DNA of 64,000 nucleotides from Nitrospiraceae bacterium (lineage in GTDB: Bacteria > Nitrospirota > Nitrospiria > Nitrospirales > Nitrospiraceae): positions 1 through 64,000 of the forward strand of contig JABFSG010000057.1 in the NCBI GenBank assembly GCA_013140715.1. The letters run 5' to 3'. The translations under genes and the position numbers were made by a program. Under the pieces are notes generated by a model. It was not told the DNA's origin and ran no database searches. It worked only from the letters and a program-made list of their open reading frames with translations. Within the stretch, counting starts at the first letter, position 1. The number at the start of each line of letters is the position of its first letter. This document shows positions 2,655-18,829 of this stretch, piece by piece.

Positions 2655-2891
2655 CTACTTCAACGCGTCGATGCCGGCGCCGAAGTTGATGTGAAAGGCT
2701 GCACCATTCATCACCAGGGCCGGGACCGACTTGACTCCGGCTGCTTCCGCTTCCTTTACCCGCCCCTTGCTCGTGCCGAGATGGACACTTTCCACGGAAT
2801 ATTTCGCCGGATCCAGGGCATTGGCAACGCTCTGTTCGGCTGCGACACACACTGGGCAGCCTGCGTGGTAGAAAATGGCTTTCGTCTTCAT
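2655..2891 (-). CDS. Glutaredoxin/thioredoxin-fold protein
   Basis: A 78-residue single-domain redox protein with the active-site motif GCPVC (Cys12, Cys15) after the first strand, and a cis-proline region SVPALVMNG near residue 55. The length fits small glutaredoxin-like proteins. It most likely reduces disulfides or transfers thiols in the cytoplasm; there is no signal peptide. The minus-strand start is preceded by an AGGGAGACC ribosome-binding site. Its partner is unknown and the neighbours give no clue. Confidence 0.8.
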   Translation of the reverse strand: MKTKAIFYHAGCPVCVAAEQSVANALDPAKYSVESVHLGTSKGRVKEAEAAGVKSVPALVMNGAAFHINFGAGIDALK

Positions 2892-3071
2892 GATGGTCTC
2901 CCTTCGACTGTGATGGTTTTTGATACTGCAGCCGTAATCCAGACAGGATAGAAATCATGCCGAATTAGGCTAGTAGGCACTTGTGGTGCCTTCGTTGTCT
3001 TGAGGGATTAAGTTACTAATAATCGAATAATGAAAGCAATAGGAAAATCCCCGCCCCACAGTGTTGAAAGA

Positions 3072-6343: not shown

Positions 6344-6433
6344 TGGCGGAGAGGGTGGGGATCGAACCCACGGTCCCGTTGCCAGGACAGCAGTTTTCGA
6401 GACTGCCCGATTCGGCCACTCTCGCACCTCTCC
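6344..6433 (-). tRNA. tRNA-Ser (anticodon CGA)
   Basis: On the minus strand the gene begins GGAGAGG and ends CCTCTCC-G-CCA, giving a 7-bp acceptor stem, discriminator G and an encoded CCA. The anticodon loop CTCGAAA sits between GCAGT and ACTGC, so the anticodon is CGA and the codon read is UCG. A long variable arm follows, as in class II tRNAs, and the T arm GTGGG-TTCGATC-CCCAC is intact. Length is 90 nt. Confidence 0.93.
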
Positions 6434-6549
6434 GCTTGGTAGAACTTGCCTCACGCCAGGGTAGGGTTGTGGGCAGCTGTTGCGTCGTTGCGATCAGTTG
6501 AGGGAGCTTACCCTGAGGAGTCTGATTTTTCAATCGGTTTTCTTTCTCC

Positions 6550-7392
6550 TTGAAGCGACGGTTCGATAGGCCTCAGTTTTGGATGGATCAGTATAGGGAT
6601 TTTGTGAATCTTCACTCGCTTGGGCCTCTTGTCACCTTTCCGTCTCTTGAAGGACTTACGACGCTTGATAGCCTCGCACCGCTTGCGCTGGACGATCGAG
6701 CGGTTCATGTCTGGGGTTTCTCCCTCAATGGAAGTGCCGGGACTCTGTCATGTTGCCGCGCTTGGCTTAACGAGGAGGAGCGAGCGAGGGCTGCACGGTT
6801 CATTCGTCAGGAAGATCGGACTCGATACCTCCTCGCACATGGCGGTCTTCGGGCGCTGCTCGCGCGCTATACTGGATTCGATCCTGCGGCACTGAAGTTT
6901 CAAACAGGCTCAGCAGGCAAGCCAGCCTTGCTGGATCAACAGGGTAGGCCTCATACGCTCCGTTTCAATCTGTCTCATTCTCACGGACGCATGCTTATTG
7001 CGGTGGCGCAGGAACAGGAGGTGGGTGTCGACCTCGAAGAGATGCGAGACAGAGTCGACGCCGTCAAGCTTGCCAAGCGGTTTTATGCTTCCTCCGAATA
7101 TCGGGAGCTCTTGGCTCATTCCGGGTTCGACCAGGTGCAGCAGTTCTACCGCTATTGGGTGGCGAAGGAAGCGGTGTTAAAGGGCCAGGGGGTCGGCATC
7201 TTGTCGCTTCGTCGGTGCGAGATCCTGAATCCGGACAATGCAGGGAGTTCGCTGGTAGGTTTATCAGATAGCAGAGCTCTCCAGCCAGGGTGGAGGATTC
7301 GGTGGCTCGTCTGTGGCAGCGGGTGGCAAGGAGCGGTGGCCTTGCAGGGAATGGACTGGAGTGTGAGAGTGGAGACCGCTGAGGAGGTTTGA
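6550..7392 (+). CDS. 4'-phosphopantetheinyl transferase (Sfp/HetI type)
   Basis: 280 residues of the Sfp-type transferase superfamily, which moves phosphopantetheine from CoA to a carrier-protein serine. The signature parts are in order: SAGKPAL and NLSHSHG (about 120-145), GVDLEEM (159-165, with the metal-binding acidic residues) and YWVAKEAVLK (about 201-210, with Glu and Lys). No polyketide, peptide-synthetase or fatty-acid carrier gene is in the window, so the client is elsewhere; it may be the cell's general holo-ACP enzyme. The first 35 residues before VHVWGF are unlike the family, so a start further in is possible. Confidence 0.88.
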   Translation: MKRRFDRPQFWMDQYRDFVNLHSLGPLVTFPSLEGLTTLDSLAPLALDDRAVHVWGFSLNGSAGTLSCCRAWLNEEERARAARFIRQEDRTRYLLAHGGLRALLARYTGFDPAALKFQTGSAGKPALLDQQGRPHTLRFNLSHSHGRMLIAVAQEQEVGVDLEEMRDRVDAVKLAKRFYASSEYRELLAHSGFDQVQQFYRYWVAKEAVLKGQGVGILSLRRCEILNPDNAGSSLVGLSDSRALQPGWRIRWLVCGSGWQGAVALQGMDWSVRVETAEEV

Positions 7393-8226: not shown

Positions 8227-9249
8227 CTACGAACGACTCAAGAGATACATGGGCCCGGTGGGTTGCGGGCGGCCGCCTGAAGGTTCGAGGCTGACGGCAA
8301 ATGTTTTTGCATCGGTGAAGCCAGGGACCTTTTTGACCAGGAGGTGAGAGGTTTCTCCGGCATTCATGCGAAAGGTCCCGACGCTCATGGGTTTGTCGTA
8401 TACGGCCCACAGCTGGTAGGTCGTGCCGGCCGGGCATTCCGGCAGGTTCACGGAGTAGAGCCAGGCGTTTTGAGTTCGAGAATCGAACAGCAGGAATCCC
8501 ACACCCTGTTTCGCCATGTCCGACCCGGCGAGAGACACGGCTTTGACGTTGGGACTTCGAAGGAGCGTCGCCAGTTCGTCTTGCGGAGTTGCGACAGTAC
8601 GCCCACCATTGCGCTGGGCTAATTGTGCACGAGTCTCTTCCAGTTCAGCTTCACGCTGGGTCAGGTGTTCCTTGGTTTCTGCCGCTTCGTTCGTTCGTTT
8701 CTGCAATTCGTTGCGCAATTCTTCGAGGACCTTGGCCTGTTCGCTGGCCTCACGTTGAACAGCGGCCAGTGCCGTCGATTTCTCTTGGAGCGATGTCTCA
8801 AGCTGTTGAATGTTCGATGTGTCGGTGGACCGCTGTGTCGAAATATCCCATGCAAGGTATCCGCCGACCACCACGACCAGGACTGTGCCCAGGCTGAGAG
8901 CCCAGGGTAATGTTGAGGATTTGGCAGGGGCGACGGGCGGAAAGAGGTGGTCCATCCATTCCCCCGGTTCCAGACTCTGCCGAGAAGCCGGTTCAACTTT
9001 TGGTGGCGTCTCAACTGGAAGCGGTGCCGTGCCTCGTTCAGCCATGATCTTGGACTTGAGGGATGGCGGAGGTTTGACCGGGCTGAGGCTGAGCGGGAGA
9101 AGCGCGGCGACGGATTGATAGTCTTTCAGCGCAGCATGGCAAGCGCTGCAGCCGGAAAGTAGGTGGGCTTCCAGCGCTTGACGTTCGGCCCGGTCCAGGG
9201 CGCCTGCCGCATACAAGGGAACCGATGCTTCGAGTTCTTCATGTGTCAT
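8227..9249 (-). CDS. RskA-type anti-sigma factor
   Basis: 340 residues. The N-terminal cytoplasmic part has a zinc-finger-like anti-sigma motif (His29, Cys34, Cys37). A single membrane span lies near 114-134 (LPWALSLGTVLVVVVGGYLAW), followed by a Gln/Glu-rich coiled coil at about 145-215 and a C-terminal RskA-like domain (225-340) with SLAGSDMAKQG and YQLWAVYDK. The family holds an ECF sigma factor inactive until the extracytoplasmic domain is processed. It overlaps the sigma gene by 4 bases (ATGA), so the two are translated together. The extended coiled coil is a little longer than in typical RskA proteins. The signal it senses is unknown. Confidence 0.87.
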   Translation of the reverse strand: MTHEELEASVPLYAAGALDRAERQALEAHLLSGCSACHAALKDYQSVAALLPLSLSPVKPPPSLKSKIMAERGTAPLPVETPPKVEPASRQSLEPGEWMDHLFPPVAPAKSSTLPWALSLGTVLVVVVGGYLAWDISTQRSTDTSNIQQLETSLQEKSTALAAVQREASEQAKVLEELRNELQKRTNEAAETKEHLTQREAELEETRAQLAQRNGGRTVATPQDELATLLRSPNVKAVSLAGSDMAKQGVGFLLFDSRTQNAWLYSVNLPECPAGTTYQLWAVYDKPMSVGTFRMNAGETSHLLVKKVPGFTDAKTFAVSLEPSGGRPQPTGPMYLLSRS

Positions 9250-9848
9250 TGGAGATCACCAGCATTTCTCCACTGTTGGAGGCCGTCTCGGAGTTTCGAC
9301 ATCCCAAGTTTGATCCTGGTCTTGACAGTTCCGAGCGGCTGGTTCAAGCGCGCAGCGATCTCGGTATGGGAAAGTCCTTCGTAGTAGGCCAGTTCAATCG
9401 CTTGCTGCTGTGCCTGAGGCAATCCAGCCACAGCCGCTCCCACGGCAACTCGTAGTTCCTGATCCGCTTGCGCCTCAAACGGGCTCGGACCGGCATCGGT
9501 CACCTGCGCAGCGGTTCCTGCTTCCAACGAGTTTGTGGCCTGCTGCCCTCGTGCGGCCCTGGCTCGTAGCCGGTCGATGGCCCGACTTTTGGTAAGGGTG
9601 ACCAACCATGCAGCAGGGGTTCCACGTCCGACGTCATAGCGGGAGACCTTCCTCCAGACTTCCAAATACACATCTTGCAAGAGCTCCGCTGCTTCCTCAT
9701 GATTCCCCAAAATCCTGACTGCCAAGGTGAACAAGAGTGTGCTCGAGTGGTCGTAGAGCTGGCTGAAGGCTTGGTGATCGCCCTTAGCCACGCGGGCCAG
9801 TAAACTTGGATCGATCGTCGAAGCGGCGTGTTGTGCGGGTCTATCCAT
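9246..9848 (-). CDS. ECF RNA polymerase sigma factor (SigK-like)
   Basis: 200 residues with region 2 (LYDHSSTLLFTLAVRILGNHEEAAELLQDV split over about 38-68, and the AWLVTLTKSRAIDRLR segment at about 83-98) and region 4 (LAYYEGLSHTEIAARLNQP, about 148-166, a helix-turn-helix). It directs RNA polymerase to a stress regulon whose promoters I cannot deduce. The gene comes first in a two-gene operon with its anti-sigma factor. It follows the RiPP operon on the same strand after a 270-base gap containing a MITE-like element, so it could be linked to that operon but need not be. Confidence 0.9.
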   Translation of the reverse strand: MDRPAQHAASTIDPSLLARVAKGDHQAFSQLYDHSSTLLFTLAVRILGNHEEAAELLQDVYLEVWRKVSRYDVGRGTPAAWLVTLTKSRAIDRLRARAARGQQATNSLEAGTAAQVTDAGPSPFEAQADQELRVAVGAAVAGLPQAQQQAIELAYYEGLSHTEIAARLNQPLGTVKTRIKLGMSKLRDGLQQWRNAGDLQ

Positions 9849-9947
9849 AACGAGCGCGCGTCATACTAAAACGAACAGCCGGTGCATCATGTCCGCCACG
9901 ACTATAACATCCTACGGATGAAACGGGCAAAAGGATGTGTGTTTCAG

Positions 9948-10073
9948 CAGAATGCTGAAAAAGGGCGCCAGCAGCGTTCTCGCCTTGAACGCATCCTCAA
10001 CGTACCCCTGAGGGTACGCCTCCGGTGCGTTCGTCGGCTGCGGCCTTGCTGGCCGCTCTTTTTGAGCATCCTG
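9948..10073. repeat. MITE-like element, copy 2
   Basis: Ends CAGAATGCTGAAAAAGGGC and CTTTTTGAGCATCCTG are inverted. The interior has the perfect palindrome CGTACCCCTGAGGGTACG and the words TGCGGCCTTGCTGG, shared with copies at 30926-31050 and 40877-41001. It sits between the last RiPP gene and the sigma-factor gene and can act as the RiPP-operon terminator. Confidence 0.75.
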
Positions 10074-10121
10074 CGGGAGAGTTCTGGACTTGGAGAATTG
10101 GATGGCGCTCTGTTCGGTTGT

Positions 10122-10907
10122 TCAACGTGCAGCGAAGATTTGCCGAATGAACGGCTCCAGCCCAGCCTCTCGGAGCGATTGACGAAGCAGGAGGGACTCT
10201 GTAACCGGGTCGTATTGCGCCAATCGCCAGGGTCCCAGCCGAACAGAATACTGCGCCGGTTGCTGTTTATTGCAAGCAGCGAAGAGTTCGGTGATATGCG
10301 GAGACATTCGGAGTCTGAAGGAGGCAACTTTGGAGTGGGAGGGGAGGGACCGGAGAGGCGCTTCTGTGAGGACATCGACCGTAGCTGTCCACCGGAGCAG
10401 GATAACGAGCATATGTTGGAAGAAGGAGAATCTTGCCAAGACACGAATACTCTGGGTTACCGACCAGACGATCAGTGTTCGTATGCGGCTCTTCCGGCTG
10501 AACGGTTCTGATGGAGTGGATAGCATTGATGGACTTTGCCCGAGAGGCAGGTAAGTGTCTCCACGTGTCACTCCCGCAACCGTTCCGATCACAGCGCTTG
10601 GCTGAACGATTTCGCAGGGACCTTGCGTCGCGTCGCCTCTTGTCGAGAGGACGCCCTCTGGATCGATGGCAGTGATGCGGTGGCAGACCAGCAGGGTGTC
10701 GACCCGGAATACCACGATTGTTCCTATGGTGAAACAGGTAGGAGGGCTGAGTTCAAGTCTGTCGCCTGCTTGTATCGTCGGTGCCATGCTCGAGGATACG
10801 ATACGGGGCGCAACCATGCTGCCGAGAAGAGGCAGTTGCAATGAATCCGGTAAATCCTGCGCGACAAAACGGTCATCCAATGTAGAGGGAGGTAGGAGTT
10901 GAATCAC
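10122..10907 (-). CDS. SipW-like S26 peptidase of the RiPP operon
   Basis: 261 residues from the GTG at 10907, whose GTGA overlaps the stop of the upstream nucleotidyltransferase gene. The peptidase core occupies about 30-125: SSSMAPTIQAGDRLEL holds the catalytic Ser, GTIVVFR the following strand, and VCHRITAI has His where Lys stands in ordinary signal peptidase I, as in SipW/ER-type enzymes; STRGDA corresponds to the box that supplies Asp. No N-terminal membrane anchor is visible; a hydrophobic stretch lies near 155-185 instead. The C-terminal third is unlike known peptidases. Placed last in the operon, it is a candidate for leader removal, which is inference. A longer upstream start exists but lies within the neighbour gene. 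Confidence 0.72.
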   Translation of the reverse strand: MIQLLPPSTLDDRFVAQDLPDSLQLPLLGSMVAPRIVSSSMAPTIQAGDRLELSPPTCFTIGTIVVFRVDTLLVCHRITAIDPEGVLSTRGDATQGPCEIVQPSAVIGTVAGVTRGDTYLPLGQSPSMLSTPSEPFSRKSRIRTLIVWSVTQSIRVLARFSFFQHMLVILLRWTATVDVLTEAPLRSLPSHSKVASFRLRMSPHITELFAACNKQQPAQYSVRLGPWRLAQYDPVTESLLLRQSLREAGLEPFIRQIFAAR

Positions 10908-11869
10908 GGGGTTGTCCTTGCAGTTCGATCGGTGATAAGACGGATCAGCATGCGGACGATCAAGAGGTGGCCCGCTTTTGCCAGGCGCCACCATCTGGTG
11001 ATGGTCGTTTGCCGAGGCCGCTGAACGCTTTCACTTCCATATCGATAGGCCAGGAAAAGCGACGATGGGAACAGGGTGCGATGCAGCCAGGAAAGCCTGC
11101 GTCCTGGCGGTTGTGTGATCCACAATAAAAAGTGTCCGAGTTCGGGAATCGGTCGGGTCGTCACCAATCGGTGGAAAAGAAATGCCAGTGCCTGTTCAGT
11201 CGTGGTCGCCGGCGCAAGTTGTTGGATGACGGTTGAAGGAATTTCTGTCGTTGGATTCGACGATGCCAGTTGGCGCAGACCATGATACAGAGGAATCTTG
11301 AGGTGATGCCGGATCGATTCCTCGATAAGCCCGGGCCAGTGGAGCGGTTCCTTCTCGATGAGCAACCGGAGATCGGTAAAAAATGAAGGGGAAAGGTGCC
11401 CTCGGTGGACAACAGAGTAGGCGATTAAATGAAGCAACAGGTCGTTGGACGCCAGTTGCTTAACCGTCAGCTGGCCGAGCGGTCGGATCCGCGCCCGTTC
11501 CCACAGGGCTGCAAGTCCCGCTTTGTCCAGATACCAGAGTTCCGAGATCAGGTCCAGAGAGAGGCTGGATCGTGGCGAGAGATAGGCAGGGTTGCCGTCG
11601 ATCTGTTGAGTAAATTCCGCCTCCAGCAACAATCGATGAATAGCAGGAAGGTCCTGCTCATGTACCAAGAGATCCACATCGGAGAGGGGCCTGGTTCCAC
11701 GTATGCCGTAGAGGCGCGAGAGCAGATCTGCTCCTTTCAGGAGGATGCAGTCGATGCCCTGCCGTTGGAACACCCGGCCGACGATCTCATACTCATCGAG
11801 CAGCCGTTTGTTGATCAGGCTGACCTGTTGGTAGGCGTCAGCGAGGTCGTCGAGGGTCGAGGAGGGCAT
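10904..11869 (-). CDS. Nucleotidyltransferase-fold protein (NTP_transf_5 type)
   Basis: 321 residues. The nucleotidyltransferase core near 50-90 has ILLKGADLL, then RPLSDVDLLV with the metal-binding Asp-x-Asp and a following DLPAIHRLLLEA helix. The remaining two thirds are helical, as in uncharacterised nucleotidyltransferases of the NTP_transf_5 family. Such genes are recurrent in RiPP and exosortase-type loci, and one occurs in some lasso-peptide clusters, where a role in decorating the peptide has been proposed. It overlaps both neighbours (31 bases with the radical SAM gene, 4 with the peptidase), so it is certainly co-translated. The transferred group and acceptor are unknown. Confidence 0.75.
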   Translation of the reverse strand: MPSSTLDDLADAYQQVSLINKRLLDEYEIVGRVFQRQGIDCILLKGADLLSRLYGIRGTRPLSDVDLLVHEQDLPAIHRLLLEAEFTQQIDGNPAYLSPRSSLSLDLISELWYLDKAGLAALWERARIRPLGQLTVKQLASNDLLLHLIAYSVVHRGHLSPSFFTDLRLLIEKEPLHWPGLIEESIRHHLKIPLYHGLRQLASSNPTTEIPSTVIQQLAPATTTEQALAFLFHRLVTTRPIPELGHFLLWITQPPGRRLSWLHRTLFPSSLFLAYRYGSESVQRPRQTTITRWWRLAKAGHLLIVRMLIRLITDRTARTTP

Positions 11870-12896
11870 GGGTGCGATGCTCCGTTTGAGCCCACTCTTT
11901 GAAATGTGGGAGGCATGAACTCATATCCCCGGTTTCAAGCCAGGCGTCGCTGCGACCCTGGCGACAGTGAGGCCGCACTTCACAGGTCGGACATTCGTAT
12001 CGGTCGCTCGGCTGTGCCCGGTCGACGGTCTGCTTGAGAATCTCCCAGCCTTCTTTGACTGTGCCGCTACGGAGATCGTAGCGTGGAATAGGGAAGGCGG
12101 TGCAGAGATTCATCTCGCCGTAGGGAGTGATCGCAAATCGGCTTTGGCCGCAGGCGCATTCGATGAAGGACTGGTTGCCTGAACAGGACTCCTCCGGCTC
12201 GGATATCCAGCGGTGAGGGAGCAGTTCCTGATCGATCCTGACTTTCACATCGGTGGCAAGGCGATAGTGCAATGGTGTCCGGTCGCCGGTAACGCCGGTC
12301 ATGATCTCCAGGCAATATTGGAATTTCATTTCCAGGGATTCGATGAGCTGCCGACAGGCCTGGATTTCCTCATAATTGACGGTGGTCACAGGCATTCGGA
12401 CGACAACAGGCAGTGCGGCGGCAGCCAGATTGAGCAGGCCCTGTCGAAATTGCCGATAGGATCCAGGAACTCCGGTCATCCCTTCATAGACCGCTTCTGT
12501 TGCGCCATAAATGGAGACGTTGACCTGACTGACACCAGCCTCCTGGAGGAGGTCGGTGAACGATGGGGTGATACGGGTCGCGTTGGTCATGAGGTGACTC
12601 ATCAATCCCTGCCGGCGCGCATGCCGAAGGATGTCGCCGATGTCGGGGCGTACGCTCGGTTCGCCTCCGGTAAAGGTCACGGTGAGCGCGCCAAGATCGG
12701 CAATCTGGTTCAGAAGCGCGCAAATCTCGCCGGTCGTGAGTTCCTGTGGCAGTGCGCGATGGGTGGGGTTGTAGCAATGGACACATCGAAGGTTGCAGCC
12801 GTAGGTCAGTTCGAAGGTGACGCCTTCCGGCCGGCGGCTCTGTGCTGCCTTTGCGGAAAGAGCCTGTAAAAAATCATCCGGCGCGATTGTTTTCAT
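11838..12896 (-). CDS. Radical SAM/SPASM protein, third maturase of the RiPP operon
   Basis: 352 residues. The SAM-binding 4Fe-4S motif is CNLRCVHC (Cys34, Cys38, Cys41), followed by FTGGEPSVRPD. The C-terminal SPASM region is rich in Cys: CSGNQSFIECACGQSRF, MNLCTAF, CPTCEVRPHC and a last SSC, enough for two auxiliary 4Fe-4S clusters. In peptide maturation such enzymes install thioether or carbon-carbon crosslinks. ATG at 12896 overlaps the kinase stop (ATGA). It is only distantly like the two other radical SAM proteins of the operon, so it probably does a different step or acts on different positions. Confidence 0.85.
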   Translation of the reverse strand: MKTIAPDDFLQALSAKAAQSRRPEGVTFELTYGCNLRCVHCYNPTHRALPQELTTGEICALLNQIADLGALTVTFTGGEPSVRPDIGDILRHARRQGLMSHLMTNATRITPSFTDLLQEAGVSQVNVSIYGATEAVYEGMTGVPGSYRQFRQGLLNLAAAALPVVVRMPVTTVNYEEIQACRQLIESLEMKFQYCLEIMTGVTGDRTPLHYRLATDVKVRIDQELLPHRWISEPEESCSGNQSFIECACGQSRFAITPYGEMNLCTAFPIPRYDLRSGTVKEGWEILKQTVDRAQPSDRYECPTCEVRPHCRQGRSDAWLETGDMSSCLPHFKEWAQTEHRTHALLDPRRPR

Positions 12897-13798
12897 GATG
12901 GCCCGACCGGATGGAGTTGTCGTTGAGCCAGGATGTAGTCCACGATATCGGGAGATTTCAGCGGCGCAAGCGCCCGGCAGTCGATTTGCTCAACAAGATT
13001 CGCGATGGTCGCCATGGTTGTCTGCAGGGCCTCGCGATCCCAGAGAGGCAGAAAGCTCTGGCGCAGGAGCTCCTGTGCAACGGTGCGTGGGGACATGCGA
13101 GACATGGTATGGCTGCCGGTTCCGTGGCTGATGCAGTAGAGCTGAGTGAGGGGATGACGGTCATTGTTGGCATAGTTACCGGACCCCACCCAGGGGGTTC
13201 CGTAGATGATGAAGTGTCCGGCAATTTTGCGGATGACGATTCGCTCGTCGCTGAGGACTAGCGCCCCCCGTTCCGCGAAGAAGTCTGCAATCGTGGACTT
13301 GCCTGCCCCCGAAGCGCCGGTGAACAGATAGCCCTGATCGTGGCTGGACAGGCCTGCTGCATGGAGGAGGAGGGTTCCCTCACGAGCCATGCGCGAGAGG
13401 AAGCAAACTTCGATGAGTGGATTGAACAGATGCATCGGACACCATCCGACTTGGCCCATCTGCAGCTCCGGAAGAATCCAGGCAGATACGGTTCTGTAGT
13501 CTTCAGAGACCAGCGCACAAGACCGTGGTTGCTGTGTATTCGGACTCAGGCTTTCGATGACGAGTCCGTCGGCTGACTCAAATAGTTTCCACAGGCCGTG
13601 GGCTGCATCGAACCGGAGTGGCCCCTTGGACAGTGAGGGAAGGTGTGAAGCCACAGTCACAGTTACGGCTAGATCCGGTTGTGAAGCAGATTGGGCGAGG
13701 AACGAATCGAACGGCCGCATCGGCCAAGCGAGTTGAGGGTGATTCTCCGGTTCGTCCAGGCTGATCAGGTAGCCGCCGATCTGAAGATCAATCCGCAT
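12893..13798 (-). CDS. HPr-kinase-like peptide kinase of the RiPP operon
   Basis: 301 residues from ATG at 13798, placed 16 bases after the stop of precursor 1. A P-loop GASGAGKST lies at about 148-156, with a second motif SDERIVIRK and then GTPWVGSGNYAN, as in the catalytic domain of HPr serine kinase and related proteins in peptide clusters. HPr itself is not encoded nearby, so the substrate is probably the precursor peptide. HPr-kinase-like enzymes of lasso loci phosphorylate the terminal serine of the precursor; all three precursors here also end in Ser. A longer in-frame start at 13924 would overlap precursor 1 out of frame and is unlikely. Confidence 0.8.
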   Translation of the reverse strand: MRIDLQIGGYLISLDEPENHPQLAWPMRPFDSFLAQSASQPDLAVTVTVASHLPSLSKGPLRFDAAHGLWKLFESADGLVIESLSPNTQQPRSCALVSEDYRTVSAWILPELQMGQVGWCPMHLFNPLIEVCFLSRMAREGTLLLHAAGLSSHDQGYLFTGASGAGKSTIADFFAERGALVLSDERIVIRKIAGHFIIYGTPWVGSGNYANNDRHPLTQLYCISHGTGSHTMSRMSPRTVAQELLRQSFLPLWDREALQTTMATIANLVEQIDCRALAPLKSPDIVDYILAQRQLHPVGPS

Positions 13799-13814
13799 GA
13801 GTTCTTCGTCCTGG

Positions 13815-14045
13815 TTACGAGAGGCGTGGGCCGCTGTCACGGCAGGTTGCGCCTGCAACGTTCGATTTTTTGCAGCCTCCCGGCGAACCTGGCGGCTGGC
13901 ATTGCCCATTAGCTCGGCAGCCATTCACGAGTGAATTGGAGAGCGCACTCATGGTCGTCAGGCTACAAGCAGAGAGAATGGCCTGCTCTTGATTCAGTTC
14001 GACGCGGAACAGTTGCGGAGGGTCGTAGATTTTTTTATGATCCAT
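13815..14045 (-). CDS. RiPP precursor peptide 1 (four core cysteines)
   Basis: A 76-residue peptide starting MDHKK, with an excellent AAGGAG site 8 bases before the ATG. The leader has YDPPQLFRV (YxxPxL) and NQEQAILSACSLT, shared almost exactly with the two paralogues upstream. The core is longer than theirs: GCRANGQC, then a Gly/Pro spacer, GGCKKSNV, GATC, and the tail RDSGPRLS. It therefore carries four core Cys against two in the paralogues. The YxxPxL motif is what RRE-type proteins such as PqqD bind. The mature peptide is probably crosslinked by the radical SAM enzymes; the exact chemistry and cleavage site are unknown. Confidence 0.8.
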   Translation of the reverse strand: MDHKKIYDPPQLFRVELNQEQAILSACSLTTMSALSNSLVNGCRANGQCQPPGSPGGCKKSNVAGATCRDSGPRLS

Positions 14046-14059
14046 AAAAACGGCTCCTT

Positions 14060-14248
14060 TCAGGAAGGGCGAGCACCTGAATCTCTTCCAGCAGTACCGT
14101 TGCGTCTCTTGCAATTGTTCGGTCTGCATCCGCCATTACCACCCTGAGATGCGCTGGTCGTCGTGAGGCTGCAGGCAGAGAGAATGGCCTGTTCCTGGTT
14201 CAGCGCGACGCGGAACAGCTGCGGTGGGCTATACGATTTTTTTGTCAT
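14060..14248 (-). CDS. RiPP precursor peptide 2
   Basis: A 62-residue peptide, MTKKSY start, leader YSPPQLFRV plus NQEQAILSACSLT, then a Ser/Gly linker and core GCRPNNCKRRNG ending RDSGARPS. Two core Cys are separated by four residues. The identical leader block and the shared C-terminal DSGxRxS mark it as a recent duplicate of its neighbours. It lies 18 bases after precursor 3 and 14 before precursor 1, so all three are made from one message. A Shine-Dalgarno (AAAGGA) is present, with a long spacer. Confidence 0.8.
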   Translation of the reverse strand: MTKKSYSPPQLFRVALNQEQAILSACSLTTTSASQGGNGGCRPNNCKRRNGTAGRDSGARPS

Positions 14249-14266
14249 CTACCGGATCGTTTTCCT

Positions 14267-14455
14267 TTAGGAGGGGCGCATACCACTGTCGCCAATACCG
14301 GCGGCTTTCTTGCATGCTCCTGGCCTGCAGAGCACGTCGCCACCGCCTGCCATGGGGTTCGAGGCGGTTAAGCTGCAGGCGCTCAAGATGGCCTGCTCCT
14401 GGCTCAGCTCGACGCGGAACAGCTGCGGTTGGCTGTAAACTTTTTTCTCATCCAT
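14267..14455 (-). CDS. RiPP precursor peptide 3
   Basis: A 62-residue peptide, MDEKKVYSQ start, leader YSQPQLFRV plus SQEQAILSACSLT, linker ASNPMAGGGD and core LCRPGACKKAAG ending GDSGMRPS. Two core Cys are separated by four residues. Its ATG lies inside the last codons of the second radical SAM gene (8-base overlap), so translation is coupled to the enzyme. It is the first of three tandem precursors in the operon. Confidence 0.8.
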   Translation of the reverse strand: MDEKKVYSQPQLFRVELSQEQAILSACSLTASNPMAGGGDVLCRPGACKKAAGIGDSGMRPS

Positions 14456-15584
14456 GATGAGTTCCGATTTCTTTGTGCGCTCTACGCAAGGGATGGATCA
14501 GCGTCTCGTGCAGCGTCGCTTGGGCTCGCACAAGAGCGACGTCACAATCATAGGGAATTGGATCTTCGGCTGCGCCACATTCCCAGCGAGCATCGGAGGG
14601 CTTCTTATCGCAAAACGTATGGATATCGCAGGTACGGCAGGGCGAGTCCCCTTGGTACCGCAATCCTCGGATTTCTCGGAACAGCATCTCGATGGCGTCA
14701 GCAAGCGGATAAACTCGAAGTGACAGCCGCCGTTCATACTGCAGGGTGCAGGTTCCGAGCTCACCCCAGGCATTGATGTGGATTGTGTCGGTTCCACAGC
14801 CGCAACGATAGAGCCGGTCTGTAGTAGGAGCGAACACATCAGCGGACGTGTTGCAGCGCTCCTCGTTCGCATCGGCAGCTGCTCGATCTCCATTTAGGGC
14901 GATGATGGTGTCGGGAGCGATCCGATAGCTGAGCGAGGAGAGATCGCCGTTGAGTCGAGGCGAAAGCGAGGTGGTGAACCCGAACTCCTGGCCGAATGAC
15001 GCTACGAATTGTCTGATGGCCGGCATCTCGTCTGTATTCCAGTTCATGGCTTTCGTTTTTAGCGAAAACTGCAGGCTGCTCTCTTTCAACAGTTCAAGCC
15101 CACGGACGAAGGCACGGTACGATCCTGGGACCTGGGTGAACCAGTCGAACGATGCTTCCGTCACGGAATGACAGGAGATGTCGATGGTGAAGGGCGGCAT
15201 CTGTTGCAGCCGCTCAATGCTCGCTTTCGTGAAGAGTGTGCCGTTGGTGTAGAGCTGGAGCAGGAAACCTTTGCGATAAGCCGTTTCGTAGATCTCGAAA
15301 AACTGAGGATGCATGAAAATGTCGCCGCCGGTCAGGTTGAGCCACACGATCCCGATCTGTTGCATCTCGTCGAGCAGGCGATGGATTTCGTCGAGTGTCA
15401 GCTCGCGCGGAAAGAATTCCTTGCTGTTGTAGGGGTCGGTGTAGCAATGGCGGCAATGGAGATTGCAGCGATAGGTCAGTTCGAGTTGTGCCTTGATTAC
15501 GCGCTGGTGGGCAGCGGCCTGCTCGTGGATTCGTTGGCTGAAAACTCCGTACTGGATGGTCGGGATGGTTCGCTCGTTAGGCAT
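14448..15584 (-). CDS. Radical SAM/SPASM protein, second maturase of the RiPP operon
   Basis: 378 residues from ATG at 15584, which overlaps the end of the preceding radical SAM gene by 8 bases; a longer frame upstream is the shadow of that gene. The cluster motif is CNLHCRHC (Cys40, Cys44, Cys47), followed by NLTGGDIFMHP, where the usual GGEP has become GGDI. The SPASM part is complete: YRCGCGTDTIHI, GTCTLQY, CRTCDIHTFCDK and WEC. It directly precedes precursor 3 and is translationally coupled to it, so these peptides are its most likely substrate. The GGE-to-GGD change near residue 80 is unusual and may alter SAM binding. Confidence 0.85.
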   Translation of the reverse strand: MPNERTIPTIQYGVFSQRIHEQAAAHQRVIKAQLELTYRCNLHCRHCYTDPYNSKEFFPRELTLDEIHRLLDEMQQIGIVWLNLTGGDIFMHPQFFEIYETAYRKGFLLQLYTNGTLFTKASIERLQQMPPFTIDISCHSVTEASFDWFTQVPGSYRAFVRGLELLKESSLQFSLKTKAMNWNTDEMPAIRQFVASFGQEFGFTTSLSPRLNGDLSSLSYRIAPDTIIALNGDRAAADANEERCNTSADVFAPTTDRLYRCGCGTDTIHINAWGELGTCTLQYERRLSLRVYPLADAIEMLFREIRGLRYQGDSPCRTCDIHTFCDKKPSDARWECGAAEDPIPYDCDVALVRAQATLHETLIHPLRRAHKEIGTHHG

Positions 15585-16488
15585 GATGCATCGCCGGTTG
15601 GATAAGGACCGGTGCATTGGGCGTTTTCCAGTCGCACGCGAAGGCCGGCAGGGCTTCGAAGAATCCTGTGCGGAACGAGCCGGTTCGCAAATCGTAGCCC
15701 TGCCGGCGATTCCCTGAGCATAGCTGCAATTGCCCATAGGCATCGATGTGGAACCGCTGCATGCCGCTTCGGCAGGGAGGGGGCTCTATTGCATCGCGTC
15801 GGCACGATTCCCTCCAGAGATCCGAATCCTGCCGATTCAGGTCTATCAGATCCTGTTCAGGCAATGCATATTGGAATGGCCCTGCGCCACCATCAAGTTC
15901 CGGCCTCATTTCTTCGCCGAGCTTGAATCGCACTGTCCCCAGCGATTCGACATACTGCTTGATATCGAGGATTTCCTCTTGATTCAGCGTCATCGCCGTG
16001 CTCTTGAGCACCAGAGGAATCTGCCGTTCGAGGAGGAATCCGATCGCCTGTACACAACGGTCGTAGGAGCCTTGTCCTAGGGTAATACGCTCGAAGGTCT
16101 CGCGAGTTATCCCGTGCAGGCTGATTTCAATACGATGGGGCCGCAGCGCGGCAAAACGATCTGCATAAGCCTCCGTGATCAGGGTCCCGTTTGAAAAAAC
16201 TGTGACCAAAAAACCGGAACGGATGGCATGTTCGTAGAGCTGGAAAAAGTCCGGGCGGGCAAGGGGTTCGCCTCCGGTGAGGCAAAGTTCCAAGGTTCCT
16301 GCCTCTGCCAACTCATCCATGATGCGAAGAATTTCAGCGCTGCTGAGCTCCCGCCGGATCGCGTCGGGGCGATTGCAGCAATCCGTGTAGCACATGACAC
16401 AGTGCAGGTTGCAACGGCAGGTCACTTCCCATTGGCAGGAATAGGGGAAGCGTTCGGGAAGGTGCGTCAGTTTATCCTGTGTAATCAT
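15577..16488 (-). CDS. Radical SAM protein, first maturase of the RiPP operon, short SPASM region
   Basis: 303 residues with CNLHCVMC (Cys26, Cys30, Cys33), LTGGEPLARPDFF and the usual strands through SNGTLIT and EISLHGITRE. The C-terminal part keeps CRSGMQRFHIDAYGQLQLC but ends soon after AFACDWKTP, so it has fewer Cys than a full twin-cluster SPASM domain. It starts 3 bases after the pqqD-like gene, which suggests that the two proteins work as a pair, the recognition protein presenting the leader to the enzyme. Which crosslink it installs cannot be read from sequence. Confidence 0.83.
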   Translation of the reverse strand: MITQDKLTHLPERFPYSCQWEVTCRCNLHCVMCYTDCCNRPDAIRRELSSAEILRIMDELAEAGTLELCLTGGEPLARPDFFQLYEHAIRSGFLVTVFSNGTLITEAYADRFAALRPHRIEISLHGITRETFERITLGQGSYDRCVQAIGFLLERQIPLVLKSTAMTLNQEEILDIKQYVESLGTVRFKLGEEMRPELDGGAGPFQYALPEQDLIDLNRQDSDLWRESCRRDAIEPPPCRSGMQRFHIDAYGQLQLCSGNRRQGYDLRTGSFRTGFFEALPAFACDWKTPNAPVLIQPAMHHA

Positions 16489-16491
16489 GAG

Positions 16492-16785
16492 TCATCCGGT
16501 CACTTCCTCAACCGCCCGGATGGAGAGAAGGTCGTCGAGTAGCGACGTGAAGTCTTTCGCCAATTGATCGCTTGTCACTTCGTACTCGTTGCAGAAGTCG
16601 GTCACGATGTTCTGCACCGACCGTCGCCCATCGATTCGATTCCAGAGTGCAGCGCCGGTCTCGTTCAAGACATAGATGCTATTGGCTTCGGTTAACGTTC
16701 GTCGGATGGGGACCAGAATACATTCGCCGGCTACATCTCGTTGCACGTAGTCCGAGTGCTTGGCATAGATTGCAGTGGGAGTCAT
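16492..16785 (-). CDS. PqqD-like RiPP recognition element
   Basis: 97 residues, the winged-helix-like PqqD fold: VQRDVAGECILVPI (strands), LTEANSIYVLNETGAALWNRIDG, then SVQNIVTDFCNEYEV and the last helix TSLLDDLLSIRAVEEV. NETGAALW is the part best conserved in the family. PqqD proteins bind precursor leaders and bring them to radical SAM partners; here the shared YxxPxL leader motif is the obvious ligand. It lies 58 bases after the methyltransferase and 3 before the first radical SAM gene. Confidence 0.85.
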   Translation of the reverse strand: MTPTAIYAKHSDYVQRDVAGECILVPIRRTLTEANSIYVLNETGAALWNRIDGRRSVQNIVTDFCNEYEVTSDQLAKDFTSLLDDLLSIRAVEEVTG

Positions 16786-16843
16786 CGGTGAAAATAGAAT
16801 AGCAAATCCTTTACGGTCCTGCCAGCGCTATTTTCCGGAATAA

Positions 16844-17686
16844 TCAGGCCCCTGGCCGGTTCAGAGGGTTGGCGTCATTGCGAGACCATGAGAGTACGGC
16901 ATGGCCTTCCTGCCAAGATAAGTGGTCGACTACGGCGCCTGTATCGTGGAGCTCCGACCGGATTTCTTGTTCGTCGACGAAGGCATGGAGGAAATGATTC
17001 TGGGAACAGGTGTCCCCCAATTGATACGACTGATTGGCGCCGGGGAGCATGGTGAGCAGGCGGTTGAGTCGGTGAATGAGCCGTTGCGTGTTTGTCCCGA
17101 GTTCACGAGCGATCAGAAAGTTGAGCACGACCAACCCCTGTTCGTTCATGCATGGACGGAGGTTTTGGAGCCACGCTTGTCGTCGTTCGCGACCGGGGAT
17201 GGAGCTGTACATGATGCCGGACATGAACAGGTAGTCGACTTGCGCCGGGCCTACTGGGAGAGCGAGGAAGTCTGCCTGTGCGAAGCGAGGCTTCAGGCCT
17301 TTGGCCGTGGCTTGCTGAGAAGCGACGCACAAGCTTTCTCTATTGATATCGAGGCCCACGACGGCAAAGCCACGCTGCGCCAGTGCAATAGATTCGCGGC
17401 CCACACCGGCTCCAAGCACCAGAATGGTTCCCGACGTCATCTTGTAGCGCGCGAGCACGTCTTCTTCCCAGCTCTCCAATGTCCATTTGTACCAGGTTTC
17501 GGGCAGTCGCGTTGCTACATCTTTGTAGCTGCCGTCGTAATGGTTGCGGATCATTCCGGTCAATTCATGCGGCGGTAACAATGCCGGGAGAATTCCGGTC
17601 AGGAGCTGCTGAACGCGGAGCAGGAGCCCGGCCATTTTATCGCAGATACGGATGAGAATGATGATGAAGTCGGCGAGTAGACGCAC
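16844..17686 (-). CDS. SAM-dependent methyltransferase
   Basis: 280 residues. The first 30 residues are hydrophobic (LLADFIIILIRICDKM and onward), perhaps a membrane-associating helix. The Rossmann-type core begins near 90 with ILVLGAGVGRESIALAQRG, motif I of class I methyltransferases, followed by VVGLDINRESL and the motif II/III region VDYLFMSGIMYSSIPG. It lies between the glycosyltransferase (12 bases) and the PqqD-like gene (58 bases), so it belongs to the operon by position. A role in methylating the peptide or a glycan is possible; a general small-molecule methyltransferase cannot be excluded. Confidence 0.78.
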   Translation of the reverse strand: MRLLADFIIILIRICDKMAGLLLRVQQLLTGILPALLPPHELTGMIRNHYDGSYKDVATRLPETWYKWTLESWEEDVLARYKMTSGTILVLGAGVGRESIALAQRGFAVVGLDINRESLCVASQQATAKGLKPRFAQADFLALPVGPAQVDYLFMSGIMYSSIPGRERRQAWLQNLRPCMNEQGLVVLNFLIARELGTNTQRLIHRLNRLLTMLPGANQSYQLGDTCSQNHFLHAFVDEQEIRSELHDTGAVVDHLSWQEGHAVLSWSRNDANPLNRPGA

Positions 17687-17698
17687 TGTCCGAGTTCC

Positions 17699-18829
17699 CT
17701 ACGAATGCAGGCTGTCAGCGCGGTTGGTATTACATGTCCCAAATTTGCTGAATTGCTGCGCGATGAGGGTTGCCGCTTCGGCTGCACCGGTCGGAGAAGG
17801 CGTCTGCAAGAAAGGGACTGGTGTAGCCAAGGTTTGCTGTAAGGCCGGTTCCCACCTGCCGTTCATAAAGTCCTCGATCGATAATTCGACGGCGCGTCCA
17901 TAGCGATGCAGATAGTCGACCAGGGGCGGTTCATCGGCAAAATTGTATCGCCTGACGTATAGGATCGGTTGTTGAAGTTCGATCGCCTCGACGATGGTGC
18001 CGTAGCCTGGTTTGGTCATGATGACATCGACGGAGGCCATCAAGGTTTTGAATGAGAAAGGGAGGGAGTGAGTCGAGACGAATCTGGTGCTGTCCGGTAC
18101 GATGGGGCCATCGAATAAAAACCGATAGCCTGCGAGTTGTTCCAGATTGGCAAACGGGAGGGAGGTCAGTGGAATACCGCCGAATCCGACGAGCACAGTC
18201 CGCTCCCCCGGGGCCAGAGTCAGCGCAGTGGCAAGTTGGTCACAGGCTGAAGAGGCAGGCTCGGCGATGGGGCCAATGTCGTGGATGCGCTGAAACACAT
18301 CGATTTTTGGGGCAGGGGTTATGCGCAGGGCCACATCGGCGTGGGCATAACTCCGACGAATCGCAGAGAGGAGGGCCGATCTATCGATGGATGGCGGAGC
18401 CACGTAATCAGAGAGAACCAGATCCCAGGTAAAGCTCACCAAGGCGACAGTGGGAATCGCCGCGACCTTTCCAGCTTCGAGGGCCAGGTAGGGCGTATCG
18501 GCAAGAACCACATCGGGCCGGGCAGTCTTCATCGCCGCCACTTCATGCTGGACCCGATCGCTCCATGTTGCGTGAAACTGCTCGTGCTCGAACCAGGTCG
18601 CTTCCATATCGATTTTTAGAGGGCCGTTCTGGATACAGCCGATGTCCTGTTGGGCGGGGCTCCGTTCCCAGGGAATCAGGAGTCGATCTTTGAAGAACGA
18701 GGCGGGGACGGCGGTTCGCAAGATGACACGCAAATCAGGAACGAGCAGTCCAAGGGCATTGAGGACCGGCACGACCTGTGCGGCATGTCCGAACCCATGC
18801 GCAGAAATTGCAGCCCAGATTAGTGGCAA
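17699..18829 (-). CDS. Glycosyltransferase, GT-B fold (MurG/MGT-like)
   Basis: 376 residues with two Rossmann-like halves. The N-terminal AAISAHGFGHAAQ (6-18) matches the acceptor-side glycine loop of MurG- and MGT-type glycosyltransferases; the C-terminal half has VLVGFGGIPL near 215 and MTKPGYGTIVEAIELQQPIL near 285, the nucleotide-sugar binding region (KPGYGT-x-E). It would add a sugar to a small acceptor. It is the first gene of the compact operon leading to the radical SAM genes; whether the peptide is its acceptor is inference. Confidence 0.75.
   Translation of the reverse strand: MPLIWAAISAHGFGHAAQVVPVLNALGLLVPDLRVILRTAVPASFFKDRLLIPWERSPAQQDIGCIQNGPLKIDMEATWFEHEQFHATWSDRVQHEVAAMKTARPDVVLADTPYLALEAGKVAAIPTVALVSFTWDLVLSDYVAPPSIDRSALLSAIRRSYAHADVALRITPAPKIDVFQRIHDIGPIAEPASSACDQLATALTLAPGERTVLVGFGGIPLTSLPFANLEQLAGYRFLFDGPIVPDSTRFVSTHSLPFSFKTLMASVDVIMTKPGYGTIVEAIELQQPILYVRRYNFADEPPLVDYLHRYGRAVELSIEDFMNGRWEPALQQTLATPVPFLQTPSPTGAAEAATLIAQQFSKFGTCNTNRADSLHS

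Follow-up and report, generated by a model that had tools for sequence, protein, structure and literature searches.

The cassette at positions 10122-17686 on the minus strand of the window (the whole stretch of 64,000 nucleotides that was analysed) probably encodes a RiPP pathway which, judged from sequence, joins a tailoring set of the linear polyphosphorylated peptide (LPP) and paeninodin type to three radical SAM enzymes. In Nitrospira, it appears to make heavily modified products out of small gene-encoded peptides. A preliminary description of the region 10122-18829 had reported a single run of twelve minus-strand genes, with which ORF positions and domain matches agree: all twelve ORFs were confirmed at their coordinates, most of them overlapping or separated by a few bases, with start positions corrected to 15584 for radical SAM enzyme B and to 13798 for the kinase. 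The cassette with its flanks reads as follows:

17699..18829, minus strand: GT-B-like protein, flank outside the system, retained in cassette-less genomes
16844..17686, minus strand: SAM-dependent methyltransferase (PF13649, E=1e-11)
16492..16785, minus strand: PqqD-type RiPP recognition element, RRE (PF05402, E=1e-16)
15577..16488, minus strand: radical SAM enzyme A (PF04055, E=1e-22)
14448..15584, minus strand: radical SAM/SPASM enzyme B (PF04055, E=2e-19)
14267..14455, minus strand: precursor peptide 1, 62 aa
14060..14248, minus strand: precursor peptide 2, 62 aa
13815..14045, minus strand: precursor peptide 3, 76 aa, four core cysteines (dN/dS about 0.1)
12893..13798, minus strand: HprK-like peptide kinase (HPr_kinase_C, E=2e-4, and AlphaFold model)
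11838..12896, minus strand: radical SAM/SPASM enzyme C (PF04055, E=5e-26)
10904..11869, minus strand: nucleotidyltransferase NTP_transf_5 (PF14907, E=2e-27, 97 bits)
10122..10994, minus strand: archaeal-type signal peptidase I, putative leader peptidase (TIGR02228, E=1.3e-9)
9246-9848, minus strand: ECF sigma factor, flank (Pfam)
8227-9249, minus strand: RskA-type anti-sigma factor, flank (Pfam)

The limits of the cassette are set by empty sites. The GT-B-like protein, for which no Pfam match at E<=0.01 was found, had been counted into the operon as a glycosyltransferase. Its adjacency on the same strand stands, but it lies outside the system because cassette-less genomes retain the gene, directly adjoining the downstream sigma-factor gene. 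The ECF/anti-sigma pair is conserved next to filled and empty sites alike and was ruled out as a cassette member on the same grounds. Between these two flanks the cassette is present or missing as one block. The methyltransferase gene is present in most cassettes, being absent from several otherwise complete ones as well as from the empty sites. No dedicated exporter was found within the cassette, nor any ORF for an MsbA-like transporter in 10122-18829.

The cassette occurs in 39 of 147 Nitrospiraceae genomes with constant gene order, content and order being kept in about 30 loci. Strong precursor matches were obtained in 29 genomes, 28 of which carry radical SAM enzyme A, so that the peptides keep company with these enzymes. 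The converse expectation, leaders without homologues beside radical SAM genes, fails since precursor and enzyme A co-occur and the exceptions are decayed: the one genome with a precursor and no enzyme A (G383) has an interrupted precursor, and one with enzyme A and no precursor (G371) has a truncated cassette. An orphan precursor lies away from the cassette in a further genome (G085). Compact relatives with a single radical SAM enzyme, found in other Nitrospirota and in one deltaproteobacterial (Myxococcota) genome, still hold RRE, radical SAM enzyme, precursor, kinase and peptidase together. The source genome of the window encodes an ammonia-monooxygenase-type gene, consistent with a comammox Nitrospira as the source organism; comammox Nitrospira hold a central place in ecology.

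The precursors match no named family in NCBIfam or PHROGs scans. They are real genes: they are under purifying selection (mean dN/dS about 0.08 in the leader and 0.11 in the core), some 50 different homologues exist, and their place between radical SAM enzyme B and the kinase does not change. The 50 distinct intact precursors share the motif K-x-Y-x-x-P...EQAILxxC or a close variant, and the C-terminal residue is Ser in 49 and Thr in the remaining one. Copy number varies from 1 to 3, and the cores differ in length and in how many cysteines they carry. The cysteine count of the core is even in 49/50 precursors; this parity is only a tendency, as locus L123 with three core cysteines breaks it. 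A conserved leader, a variable core and constant linkage to an RRE and modifying enzymes are the general hallmarks of a RiPP. Together, the RRE-type leader, the purifying selection and the fixed place in the cassette support the earlier proposal that the three peptides act as RiPP substrates.

Within the RRE, Asn41 and Asp78 are invariant in 36/36 aligned sequences. The two residues are 37 positions apart, the same spacing as Asn33/Asp70 in LppB and Gly42/Gln79 in PbaB1, and correspond to the YxxP-binding pair Asn33/Asp70 of LppB. A search of the RRE against the PDB gave only two matches at E<=0.1, the lasso PqqD chaperone 9x90 and the PqqD protein 9x8z.

Three radical SAM proteins had been predicted, and PF04055 is found in all three. 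Enzyme A carries the CxxxCxxC motif at Cys26, Cys30 and Cys33 and C-terminal cysteines short of a full SPASM set, while enzymes B and C have the full set; the SPASM cysteines of B (Cys261, Cys263, Cys279, Cys316, Cys319, Cys325 and Cys347) are kept in 16/16 sequences, and those of C are likewise conserved. Every complete cassette has all three genes with intact catalytic cysteines. Enzyme A sequences form a monophyletic group in the radical SAM tree, and by sequence comparison A, B and C are paralogues whose divergence predates the split of the sampled Nitrospiraceae genera.

The HPr_kinase_C match of the kinase is weak (E=2e-4, under the gathering score). The AlphaFold model, with a pLDDT of 92.6, resembles PEPCK and HprK/P structures and confirms a predicted HprK/PEPCK fold, which bears out the earlier designation as HPr-kinase-like. 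His146, Gly161, Gly164, Gly166, Lys167, Ser168 and Asp184 are invariant in 25 sequences; the His, the P-loop GxxGxGKS and the acidic residue agree with the catalytic residues of BsfK. In contrast to the lasso kinases, which have a second catalytic Asp, the Nitrospira kinases have a Glu at that place, right after Asp184.

In the nucleotidyltransferase, Asp64, Asp66 and Asp106 are invariant, and a fold search with its model matches the nucleotidyltransferases MenT1, LnuA and ANT(2''). With the sequence, a search of the PDB returned antibody chains only, nothing relevant; with the profile, it returned no match. The signal peptidase scores 38 bits against TIGR02228 (cut-off 52), its SxSMxP, CHR and GDA motifs (Ser, His, Asp) are conserved, and its true start probably lies inside the ORF 10122..10994. 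Fusions of peptidase and NTP_transf_5 are found in loci L124 and L064, with opposite domain order.

The nearest known systems are the LPP family of Bacillota and paeninodin-type lasso tailoring, both described without radical SAM enzymes and both missing from the set with which the preliminary description had compared the locus. Like LPP loci (Popov et al. 2026, Nat Commun, PMC13381572), the cassette holds an RRE, an HprK-like kinase, an NTP transferase, an SpI signal peptidase and 1-3 precursors, and no macrolactam cyclase. LPP have been reported from Bacillota only, with an MsbA-like transporter and with radical SAM enzymes unmentioned; their leader reads YxxPxVLxHQxIxFETxxS, their C-termini are variable and Ser3 is phosphorylated (PMC13381572). 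In contrast, the window has three radical SAM enzymes, conserved core cysteines, a C-terminal Ser, often a methyltransferase, and no transporter. In the window-type precursors YxxPx[LVI] was found, HQ and FET were not. Paeninodin and pseudomycoidin share with the cassette a YxxP or WxxP leader recognised by a PqqD-type B1 protein, an HprK-like kinase (PadeK, PsmK), which there phosphorylates the C-terminal Ser, and in PsmN an NTP_transf-type enzyme, which there acts on the phosphorylated peptide (PMC9266682). They differ in that the cassette has radical SAM enzymes instead of B2 protease and cyclase C.

We infer all chemical steps of the pathway as follows. The PqqD-type RRE would, as a strong inference, bind the leader at its YxxPxL motif and present the precursor, and enzymes A, B and C would very likely modify its C-terminal half. 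Cross-links formed from the invariant cysteine pair are a tentative best guess for this chemistry. The kinase is likely to phosphorylate the peptide, and the C-terminal Ser, as in paeninodin, is the favoured site with some reserve, the Ser of the leader-core CS motif being a less likely one; in BsfA and LPP the phosphorylated residue is core Ser3, not the C-terminus. The nucleotidyltransferase might then add a nucleotide or sugar to the phosphate, as proposed for PsmN, a step given slightly less than an even chance; it leans mainly on PsmN, since no effect of LppN could be detected in its host (PMC13381572). The signal peptidase likely cuts off the leader with the assistance of the RRE, by analogy with LppS, an archaeal-type signal peptidase cleaving RiPP leaders (PMC13381572). 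The methyltransferase would act in most species.

Since the RRE, kinase, nucleotidyltransferase and signal peptidase make up the LPP set, the product could be a plain LPP or lasso-type peptide with the radical SAM genes incidental, all the more as a lasso-peptide cluster fills the same chromosomal slot in one Nitrospira genome (G214). This is improbable: the B2 leader peptidase and the Asn-synthetase-like cyclase were sought in the cassette and neither was found (the lasso control, locus L150, gave Transglut_core3 and Asn_synthase domains), the FETxxS end of the LPP leader is missing, and three radical SAM genes with their catalytic cysteines stand in every complete cassette, even the compact relatives retaining one.

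Somewhat less probable still is that the peptides become a small redox cofactor for the cell's own use, like PQQ or mycofactocin, whose plan is likewise PqqD plus a radical SAM/SPASM enzyme. Purifying selection on the core and a chromosomal site stable across the family would suit a cofactor; 1-3 copies with cores variable in length and cysteine number, and an orphan copy elsewhere in G085, would not, and those pathways have no use for a kinase, nucleotidyltransferase or signal peptidase. The PqqE and MftC models give the window <=97.6 bits against cut-offs of 381 and 265. No model for PQQ, mycofactocin, GeoRSP, sactipeptides or ranthipeptides reaches its cut-off; the last three share radical SAM/SPASM enzymes and Cys-containing precursors with the window, but score far under cut-off, and the window adds kinase, nucleotidyltransferase and signal peptidase.

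Equally improbable are two functions side by side, with kinase, nucleotidyltransferase and peptidase directed not at the peptide but, for example, at decoration of a surface polymer. LPP and paeninodin loci do sit among polysaccharide genes, and one locus (L048) adjoins a gene of polysaccharide-chain-length type, as read by eye. However, the cassette comes and goes as a block, its genes are interleaved with the kinase between enzymes B and C, the C-terminal Ser is nearly invariant, and compact relatives retain kinase and peptidase.

Least probable is a SynChlorMet cassette (TIGR04248-TIGR04251) or a direct variant of it: the outline noted before is shared (PqqD, HprK-like protein, two or more radical SAM/SPASM enzymes), but membership, which the preliminary description had not claimed either, is contradicted by the best window scores for ScmC, ScmD, ScmE and ScmF of 16.7, 24.9, 88.7 and 75.8 bits (curated cut-offs 125, 100, 400 and 400), by precursors that match no NCBIfam model and are unrelated in sequence, and by a radical SAM tree, to be read with caution for its long branches, in which none of A, B and C falls within the Scm pair. 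The positive control, a genuine SynChlorMet cassette of the same phylum (L090), passes all four models (567, 313, 602 and 135 bits; range 134.7-602); an archaeal-type signal peptidase and a 48-aa candidate peptide with YxxPxL occur there as well, and no NTP_transf_5 was seen in this locus.

For the combination of LPP-type tailoring and radical SAM chemistry, the chances are even that it represents a separate RiPP class, a 'radical SAM LPP' in which radical SAM cross-linking would be joined by phosphorylation of the C-terminal Ser and its capping with a nucleotidyl or glycosyl group, in a compact one-enzyme form and an elaborate three-enzyme form in Nitrospiraceae. No earlier description combines a peptide kinase and a nucleotidyltransferase with three related radical enzymes, and no RiPP system with radical SAM enzyme, HprK and nucleotidyltransferase was found in the open-access literature. 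Should the radical-SAM-modified peptide prove to be the substrate of the kinase, the pathway would be the first known RiPP route uniting radical SAM chemistry, (poly)phosphorylation and capping, and the LPP logic would reach beyond Bacillota. As three anciently diverged paralogues meet one precursor family, how they divide the work between them can be tested directly. The slot common to the cassette and a lasso cluster offers a natural experiment on RiPP cassette replacement at a fixed site.

All twelve minus-strand genes of the preliminary description were found as described. Pfam and NCBIfam scans covering ten of the ORFs detected a PqqD protein, three Radical_SAM proteins, an NTP_transf_5 nucleotidyltransferase and a methyltransferase, together with weak matches to the HPr-kinase C-terminal domain and to an archaeal-type signal peptidase; no scanned protein scored above the cut-off of any NCBIfam equivalog. 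The cassette is genuine and is left unexplained by routine annotation. The glycosyltransferase (GT), which had been counted as an operon member, does not belong to it: in eleven cassette-less genomes the flanks are kept and the ECF sigma gene comes straight after GT. Since these empty sites retain the GT-ECF sigma adjacency, the unit that is gained or lost and its backbone are delimited as follows.

8227-9249: RskA-type anti-sigma gene, backbone
9246-9848: ECF sigma gene, backbone
10122-17686, minus strand: variable unit, methyltransferase to signal peptidase
17699-18829, minus strand: GT, backbone

The backbone also includes orf66 and a TPR gene. The first radical SAM gene, rSAM A, is present in 39 of 147 Nitrospiraceae genomes. 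Two further genomes without it differ from the eleven: in G216 the cassette is present but interrupted by a contig end, and in G214 the same GT-ECF sigma slot holds a complete lasso-type cluster.

8603-16070 of locus L150 (G214:C9): PqqD (B1), transglutaminase-like B2, Asn-synthetase-like C, precursor, methyltransferase, HprK-like kinase and NTP_transf_5

The precursor of this cluster carries KKPYTTPTLVEYGDIAKLTQGG. Because its kinase shares only distant kinship with that of the radical SAM cassette (35% over 51 residues), the slot reflects replacement of one cassette by another rather than simple decay. In a further cassette-less Nitrospira (G091), a PqqD protein, an HprK-like kinase, NTP_transf_5, a B2-like protein and an MsbA-like transporter lie together (L095, 5602-11398); no cyclase was seen near this group, apparently another system resembling those of linear polyphosphorylated peptides (LPP) or lasso peptides.

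The three window precursors are paralogues of 62, 62 and 76 residues. Their N-terminal halves are nearly the same (KKxYxxPQLFRVxLxQEQAILSACSLT), and their tails, rich in cysteine and glycine, terminate in DSGxRxS. A profile of the three peptides found homologues in Nitrospirota, with strong matches almost all within the family of the window, and in the complete cassettes examined the precursor lies between rSAM B and the kinase. The proposed association of this leader with radical SAM enzymes is borne out, as 28 of the 29 genomes with a strong precursor match possess rSAM A; the remaining one (G383) has a precursor with an in-frame stop. Conversely, G371 has rSAM A and lacks a precursor, its cassette being cut within rSAM B. 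An additional orphan precursor in G085 (L050, 9853-10152), with the same leader and a DSGPRQS tail, lies far from the enzymes and near a histidine kinase/response regulator pair, with no cassette genes around it.

Among 46 intact distinct precursors the C-terminal residue is Ser in 45 and Thr in one, and the leader cysteine is followed by two, four or six further cysteines in all 46. Four additional precursors (L064, L122, L123 and L124) all end in Ser, that of L123 having three core cysteines. From these counts, the constant elements are YxxPx[LIV], the boundary motif [QED]A[IV][LI]xxC, a core cysteine pair and a terminal hydroxyl residue. The mostly even number of core cysteines hints at pairwise bridges, which might be either thioether or disulfide.

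Each of rSAM A, B and C contains CxxxCxxC, with full sets of SPASM-type cysteines in B and C and a reduced set in A. They resemble one another, and the single enzyme of compact, one-rSAM clusters, much more closely than they resemble the remaining radical SAM proteins encoded in the genome. In a maximum-likelihood tree (short search, some long outgroup branches) A, B and C each form one clade (SH-aLRT 99), A and B are sisters (support 88), and the compact-cluster enzymes form a clade of their own. As the deep-branching genus of L065 is placed at the base of each of the three clades, the triplication predates the sampled genera. In L065 the signal peptidase looks, by eye, fused to a GNAT-type acetyltransferase domain (14441-15433).

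Compact clusters occur in other Nitrospirota families (loci L064, L068, L078, L082 and L083) and in a deltaproteobacterial genome placed in Myxococcota (L048). They comprise PqqD, one rSAM/SPASM protein, a precursor of 51-55 residues mostly ending in GS and an HprK-like kinase, and most also encode a signal peptidase; a precursor was identified in neither L082 nor L083. Adjoining the L082 cluster is an ORF (6380-7012) built from almost identical repeats of about 26-28 residues arranged head to tail (MFPGSSVGRVPKDFGINHWVGDYREGVN). Two deep-branching cassettes are more elaborate: L122 (2217-14827) contains a second PqqD protein and additional methyltransferase-like genes, and L123 (212-11597) several tandem methyltransferases.

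The remaining enzymes retain their active sites. For the kinase, a model with pLDDT 92.6 has its structural counterparts in PEPCK and HprK/P, and the invariant residues coincide with those whose mutation impairs the lasso-type peptide kinase BsfK. The structural counterparts of the modelled nucleotidyltransferase are MenT1, LnuA and ANT(2''); this enzyme retains three Asp residues, and the signal peptidase preserves its SxSMxP, CHR and GDA motifs. These two proteins are fused in opposite order in L124 (NTP5-SpI) and L064 (SpI-NTP5), independent links between the peptidase and nucleotidyltransferase steps.

A sequence search (E<=0.1) with the window PqqD protein returned only 9x90 (lasso PqqD chaperone) and 9x8z (PqqD family protein) from the PDB. 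Agreement of the aligned positions identifies them, in this reading, with the RiPP recognition elements (RREs) of the paeninodin type and of LPP in PMC13381572. Gly and Gln of 9x90 align with N41 and D78 of the window protein, 37 positions apart like G42/Q79 of PbaB1 and N33/D70 of LppB, and both window residues are invariant in 36 of 36 aligned sequences. Since N33 and D70 of LppB hydrogen-bond Pro and Tyr of YxxP (PMC13381572), the window RRE would be expected to recognise YxxP in its own precursors.

Assignment to SynChlorMet was rejected by comparison with a real SynChlorMet locus. In that locus (L090, 2973-8419, G042:C41) a signal peptidase of archaeal type and a 48-residue candidate precursor (2794-2940, minus strand) containing YSIPKL are likewise present, which suggests that SynChlorMet lies within the same wider RRE/kinase/signal-peptidase logic. 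The closest likeness is to LPP, described in 2026 from Bacillota (PMC13381572), which share the tailoring set of RRE, HprK-like kinase, NTP transferase and archaeal-type signal peptidase and have no cyclase; however, the main text of that report mentions neither radical SAM enzymes nor Nitrospirota, whereas the cassette encodes three such enzymes. The LPP kinase attaches up to four phosphates, and the leader is removed by the signal peptidase with help of the RRE (PMC13381572). In paeninodin and pseudomycoidin the C-terminal Ser is the kinase target, and PsmN puts a hexose on the phosphopeptide (PMC9266682). Computation establishes the gene content and linkage, the conservation of active sites, the leader motif and the terminal Ser/Thr. 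By analogy with these homologues, the pathway would proceed from leader recognition through core modification, phosphorylation, probably of the terminal residue, and capping to leader cleavage.

A survey of activated-sludge Nitrospira reports several RiPP clusters in every genome, and the portion consulted describes no cassette of the window type (PMC9765116). The cassette is an RRE-guided RiPP system of Nitrospiraceae that adds radical SAM enzymes to the LPP/paeninodin tailoring logic. An AMO-family gene in the genome of the window (G000:C70:7679-8380, PF02461, 313 bits) is consistent with comammox Nitrospira. Comparison of closely related species gives dN/dS values of about 0.08 for the leader half of the precursors and about 0.11 for the core half, so that both halves are constrained. 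Purifying selection this strong on the core speaks against a rapidly evolving toxin and favours a role that is conserved in the producing cell, which might, speculatively, be that of a signal or of a surface or biofilm peptide.
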